Origin: Chitinophagia bacterium
GTDB taxonomy: Bacteria > Bacteroidota > Bacteroidia > Chitinophagales > Chitinophagaceae
DNA length: 39,624 bases
Reading direction: 5' to 3'
Assembly: GCA_009924165.1 (NCBI GenBank)
Contig: RFSD01000002.1
Coordinates: forward strand, 1 to 39,624
In this document: positions 18,170 to 18,352 of the stretch, piece by piece
Numbering within the stretch: position 1 is the stretch's first letter
Layout of the letters: the number at the start of each line of letters is the position of its first letter
Notes under the pieces: model-generated
Database searches by the model: none
The model's input: the letters and a program-made list of their open reading frames with translations, nothing else
What the model was told of the DNA's origin: nothing
Made by a program: the position numbers and the translations under genes

Positions 18170-18202
18170 AAAAATGCCCCTTCATTTTGAAGGGGCATTT
18201 TT
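18170..18202 (+). terminator. Rho-independent terminator of M28 peptidase gene
   Basis: AAAAATGCCCCTTC-ATTTT-GAAGGGGCATTTTT. Confidence 0.92.
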
Positions 18203-18232
18203 ATTTCTTATATATTTTTATACAATATTATT

Positions 18233-18339
18233 GTTTGAAAGAAATACTAATCCGAGCGAGAAGACGTGAATGAGCGTCTGATGGAAGCCCGTAAATTCCT
18301 CTTGCGAGCGTGAGCGAGGATTAGGTATTTTTTCGAACG
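18233..18339. repeat. MITE-like / palindromic structured element
   Basis: GTTTGAAAGAAATACTAATCC (18233-18253) pairs with GGATTAGGTATTTTTTCGAAC (18318-18338) as 20 bp with two single-nt bulges; internal hairpins AGACG/CGTCT and GGAA/TTCC; flanked by TATTATT at 18226-18232 and 18340-18346. Confidence 0.55.
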
Positions 18340-18352
18340 TATTATTATGGGA

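Follow-up and report, generated by a model that had tools for sequence, protein, structure and literature searches.

What is the structured, GC-rich segment lying between a peptidase gene and a DHS-like gene in the window (the whole 39,624-nt stretch of contig RFSD01000002.1 analyzed here), and does it move? A preliminary description took it for a MITE-like element bounded by a target-site duplication; on re-checking of the sequence, the letters and coordinates given there were all correct. The GC content reaches 0.46 across 18233-18339 and 0.53 in the core versus 0.23-0.27 in the flanks, and on either strand the segment folds more strongly than every one of 200 shuffles (z = -3.4 and -3.5). 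The organism of the window can be assigned from its sequence to Sediminibacterium, the DHS-like gene being 97-98% identical to records of that name. The segment is probably a composite: a copy of a dispersed family of structured palindromes, designated R1 and kept as a strand-specific hairpin, that here carries a second palindrome, designated M, in its apex (Table 1).

Table 1. Features of the segment and of its immediate surroundings (positions within the window)
Feature	Position	Strand	Basis
TATTATT direct repeats	18226-18232 and 18340-18346		sequence
5' arm of outer stem (GTTTGAAAg AAATAC TAATCC)	18233..18253	+	sequence, R1 match, fold, orthologues in G001/G014/G129
3' arm of outer stem (GGATTAG g TATTTTTTCGAACG)	18318..18339	+	sequence, fold, R1 match
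Purine-rich internal-loop strand GAGCGAG, conserved GNGAA motif, 5' side	18254..18260	+	conserved in covariance-model alignment
Purine-rich internal-loop strand CGTGAGCGA, 3' side	18309..18317	+	covariance-model alignment
Inner module M: AAGACG-TGAATGAG-CGTCTGATG hairpin, apex of outer stem	18261..18283	+	
Remaining apex (GAAGCCCGTAAATTCCTCTTGCGAG)	18284..18308	+	
TATTATT, left copy, apparent mutated outer continuation of the stem	18226..18232	+	TATTAGC in G001, TGTTAGC in G014
TATTATT, right copy	18340..18346	+	TGTTTTT in G001, CTAAATA in G080 remnant
Ordinary intrinsic terminator of the peptidase gene, separate from the element	18170..18202	+	15 pairs, T tail

Both outer arms contain an extra G (18241 in the 5' arm, 18324/18325 in the 3' arm); the 3' arm also has the unpaired base that the R1 family shows between GTAT and the inner stem, and it persists in genome G080 as the remnant TTAGGTATTTTTTCGAACGCTAAA. 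The word GAGCGAG occurs twice (18254-18260 and 18313-18319), and the hairpin AGACG-TGAATGAG-CGTCT occupies 18262-18279. Within the remaining apex, the tail GAAGCCCGTAAATTCC accompanies M in G000, G001, and G009 (two copies) and, with one change, in G129, and CTTGCGAG is the old apical hairpin. The peptidase terminator is also found in genomes without the element. An identity of the element itself as a terminator was rejected, since its T run falls within the stem, and that separate hairpin is the only terminator-scan match nearby.

A plain DNA search detected related segments in 12 congeners and, in the source genome, the window copy alone. The single-copy status was dropped once a covariance model of R1, built from 15 copies that lack M, recovered the window copy at 18234-18339 (E = 2e-4) and five further copies in the source genome, six in all. 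Across the genus, R1 is present in 60 of 147 genomes with at least 1-15 copies each (copy numbers per genome are lower bounds), and all R1-positive genomes measure 2.6 Mb or less. None of 149 further genomes drawn from the order, with other genera of the family among them, yielded R1. R1 is a dispersed family of a Sediminibacterium sub-clade, as seen in mostly draft assemblies, and the preliminary proposal of a dispersed, non-coding, palindromic repeat is upheld by the congener matches and the copies found with the model. Eleven R1 loci scanned against Rfam gave no match at the gathering threshold, and the Rfam hits in the window region all fall below gathering scores. Searches of the open-access literature turned up no account of such repeats in Sediminibacterium or its family. 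R1 is best read as a new REP/ERIC-like family of intergenic palindromes, preserved in the form of a strand-specific hairpin. A viral origin was considered and rejected: the apical motif has 12 exact matches among viral contigs, all in unrelated context, and the M pattern had none there.

A copy of R1 is a long imperfect hairpin with an AT-rich, variable outer stem ending in ATAC/GTAT (consensus TTAGAAA-AAATAC / GTAT-TTTTTCTAA). In the 3' arm, one or two unpaired bases lie directly inside GTAT and are followed by the inner stem; next comes a conserved purine-rich internal loop pair (GNGAA / GAGAG), beyond which the apex is variable. The ends are inverted repeats whose letters differ among loci with complementarity kept. 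In an alignment of 77 distinct copies fitted to the R1 model (A2), 92.3% of cells are paired and double changes occur at 21 of 25 pairs, the rows being related and the counts thus not independent events; slid controls reach at most 51%. The original, unfitted MAFFT alignment gives 86.4% paired cells and double changes at 14 of 25 pairs, with slid controls at or below 56%. Imperfect pairs of the outer helix are strongly biased (63 G-T versus 8 A-C). As a cruciform would treat both strands alike, this bias indicates that a single strand is preserved: the preserved object is the purine-rich strand folded single-stranded, as RNA or DNA.

R1 lies behind genes. The copies read fall, by their flanking proteins, into 20 independent neighborhoods, of which 15 are convergent, 5 tandem, and none divergent. 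Convergent intergenes account for 14% and divergent ones for 27% of intergenic bases (375 kb of G009 plus the window), and the chance of so many convergent sites is ~1e-9 by intergenic bases. The safe intergenic position proposed for the window element is supported. At several tandem sites (L003, L233/L246, and L257) the purine-rich strand is antisense to both neighbors, an arrangement that speaks against a role simply as a 3'-UTR RNA. Eight genomes (L239 and L248-L254) contain two R1 hairpins, each of its own subtype, arranged as an inverted pair with starts ~140 bp apart, close to TGTTCCACGTGGAACA sites that we take to be parS-like; the hairpins are kept and the spacer has diverged.

The history of the peptidase/DHS intergene can be followed in relatives. 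The window subtype is present in G000, G001, G014, and G129, reduced to its 3' arm in G080, and absent from the same intergene in G116, G009, G068, and Sediminibacterium sp. Go_Eff_bin_321, the twin of G009 with the same DHS gene DNA. In the DHS-gene tree these nine rows form one clade (support 100/99), so the simplest account of the window copy is one old acquisition followed by losses. The genomes G116, G009, and G068 confirm that sites without the element exist in close relatives; they are nested among the carriers, and their absences may be deletions. Among the sites compared, no insertion against a clean, near-identical empty site was caught. In other clades the same intergene holds a C type (G063 and G121), the same C type inverted (G004 and G089), a B type (G012, G018, G029, G074, G079, and G110, as well as G080), or yet another subtype (G118). 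The metG intergene has a similar pattern of presence and absence. R1 copies come and go, slowly. Some sites hold R1 across many genomes (eight for the pair near the parS-like sites), which could mean a maintained function rather than mobility. The preliminary description had set a conserved position and covarying stems against mobility; the position is indeed conserved within the clade and the stems do covary, but dispersal also holds and sites without the element exist.

The inner module M (18261-18283) is a second dispersed palindrome. Its pattern occurs in 46 of the 147 Sediminibacterium genomes, and a reversed control gives almost no matches. M is missing from the orthologous site in G014, where TGTTCGAG is found instead; two copies of R1 at unrelated loci of G009 have the inner ~97 nt, including M, in common and different but self-complementary arms; and in G074, M stands in place of part of a terminator hairpin seen in G012. 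Of 31 occurrences read, 17 fall within an open frame, always in one orientation, in linkers or acidic tails of proteins that, named from their sequences, are presumably PolA, FtsK, GyrA, and ScpB. In-frame reading of M (AAGACGC-nnnn-GCGTCTGATG) was seen at L261, L264, L266, L267, L275, L276, L278, L283, and L286, in the proteins just named and in a small acidic-tailed protein; the usual translation is EEDAxASDE, and PolA uses another frame (EKTRTASDE). The PolA linker, the protein for which the in-frame gain was compared with relatives, shows a net in-frame gain of 27 nt with M in G080, G022, G130, and G101, absent from G000, G001, G014, G009, and others. The acidic tails might partly favor M coding by themselves, which makes its mobility into them less certain than into PolA. 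M is an RPE-like coding palindrome in free-living Bacteroidota. It does not match a CGTC-tagged REP, which has an unpaired CGTC tag, a stem of 8-9 bp, a loop of 4-5 nt, and a CCA tail: the CGTC of M lies inside its stem of ~6 bp, and there is no CCA tail. In Rickettsia palindromic elements and intragenic REPs, DNA polymerase I is also hit (PMC3733652, PMC2229807), and these elements resemble M in being small palindromes in frame in housekeeping proteins; M differs from RPE in its length of only ~21-27 nt, in its free-living host, and in nesting in R1 and in a terminator hairpin.

The TATTATT pair had suggested a classical MITE, an element derived by deletion from a DDE insertion sequence and marked by terminal inverted repeats plus a target duplication of 7 bp. 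Dispersal at unrelated sites and inverted ends agree with the MITE-like character assigned before; the target duplication does not survive comparison. A 7-bp direct repeat at both boundaries has a ~0.5% chance in flanks of such composition. Orthologous copies lack the repeat (flanks TATTAGC...TGTTTTT in G001, GTTAGC...TGCTAAA in G014, and CGCTAAATATT at the G080 remnant), so the pair is most likely a coincidence, as judged from these sequences, and the orthologue flanks imply that the stem once continued through the positions now reading TATTATT. Direct repeats at the ends of 87 R1 copies have a length of 2.07 versus 2.00 in shuffled flanks, i.e., no signal, and inverted continuation is longer, 2.57 versus 1.80 in shuffled flanks (s.d. 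0.13). As the arms, in addition, vary among loci, unlike the ends of insertion sequences that are recognized by sequence, a classical MITE is very improbable. A REP/REPIN mobilized by a RAYT (Y1) transposase, whose hairpin foot bears an unpaired GTAG or CGTC tag (PMC3733652), is to be doubted just as strongly. R1 does share with REPs the short intergenic hairpins, the convergent preference with avoidance of divergent intergenes, and the pairs in opposite orientation with starts ~100-150 bp apart (PMC3733652). On the other hand, its stem is longer, no conserved unpaired GTAG/CGTC foot is seen in the family alignment, and Y1_Tnp (PF01797; RAYT and IS200 transposases), present in 37 of the 147 Sediminibacterium genomes, had no match in a profile search of the 60 R1-positive genomes. 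R1 is thus not maintained by a resident RAYT recognizable by PF01797, and the matching REP transposase that had been envisaged is absent from 60 of 60 R1-positive genomes. An autonomous element was likewise not seen in the loci read, and no other candidate for the mobilizing enzyme came to light. An attC-like integron site, suggested by the unpaired base, is doubtful, neither a recombinase nor attC boxes having been noticed. The RAYT/Y1 genomes (G010, G013, G030, G034, G035, and 32 more) are R1-negative only and mostly larger.

Two further rivals concern RNA function and template switching. R1 could be a functional RNA at gene 3' ends, a transcribed purine-rich hairpin that protects, cuts, or terminates mRNA, with copies kept by selection on this role rather than mainly spreading. 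The double changes and the G-T bias are in line with such a role, as are the lack of copies in divergent intergenes and the maintenance of the pair near the parS-like sites in eight genomes with a diverged spacer. This reading is nonetheless unlikely, given that the peptidase already has a strong terminator of its own, that the purine-rich strand is antisense to both neighbors at the tandem sites mentioned, that any given site is without R1 in most genomes, and that Rfam offers no match at the gathering threshold. Alternatively, the hairpins might generate themselves, replication template switching copying arm onto arm and enlarging quasi-palindromes without help from a dedicated enzyme. Arms that are specific to their locus, remain complementary, and partly match the flanks in element-free relatives fit this idea; so does half an R1 element at metG of G005 (L352), closed by an exact new inverted copy (ATTTCGTA/TACGAAAT), which suggests template switching there. 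Acting alone, such a process accounts neither for the same core and conserved loops at unrelated loci nor for the bias of G-T over A-C, and as a full explanation it is scarcely credible.

The dispersed-family reading would work as follows. R1 copies may spread as non-autonomous DNA coding no enzyme of their own, probably via a single-stranded hairpin intermediate or, alternatively, through core-to-core recombination and template switching at the hairpin. Once in place, copies persist over long inheritance, become inverted, are stripped of their apex or halved, and act as landing sites for M, which fills the apex of the window copy. What holds the arms complementary might be selection acting on the folded strand or correction through template switching. 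Persistence could reflect harmlessness at gene 3' ends; in one alternative inferred here, the transcribed hairpin would act on mRNA ends as ERIC does. An undescribed route through a single-strand hairpin, in which the arms are rebuilt from target sequence with neither a Y1/DDE transposase nor a target duplication, seems distinctly unlikely; if true, it would give each copy a locus-specific yet self-complementary outer stem.

Proteobacteria and pneumococci commonly carry small palindromic repeats, many of which are explained by transposases or mRNA effects. The ends of RUP link it to an IS transposase, whereas nothing was found that ties the ends of R1 to one. RUP, BOX, and SPRITE of Streptococcus pneumoniae resemble R1 and M in that small repeats cluster intergenically and insert into each other (PMC10969869). 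ERIC/IRU of Enterobacteria and Vibrio is, like R1, an intergenic palindrome of ~100 nt with one long stem-loop and modest copy number; it has been reported at gene 3' ends (PMC2229807, PMC10969869) and is listed with TIR and TSD (PMC2229807). R1 differs in being conserved mainly in structure, in having no target-site duplication, and in its unrelated host. R1 is unusual in that structure is kept over sequence, target duplications are lacking, the expected transposase is excluded (R1 being absent where it exists), and a second hairpin is nested inside that is found in DNA polymerase I, FtsK, and gyrase. In a freshwater, little-studied lineage, R1 offers a testable system for the spread and evolution of hairpins without an obvious enzyme.

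Other hairpins were encountered in the same neighborhoods. Another long type, with CCCTCATCCTC-AAGCGGAAGG in the loop (TAATAAACATAGCTACCCC...GGGGTACTATGTTTATTA), lies at ~1390-1475 of L003 and in the upstream flank of L246, and apparently represents a third dispersed hairpin family. Despite similar arms, L003 is not supported by its flanking proteins as an orthologue of L246. In the peptidase/DHS and metG intergenes, intrinsic terminators turn over like cassettes among closely related genomes, with differing sequences, gains, losses, and tandem duplicates (G007 and G065).
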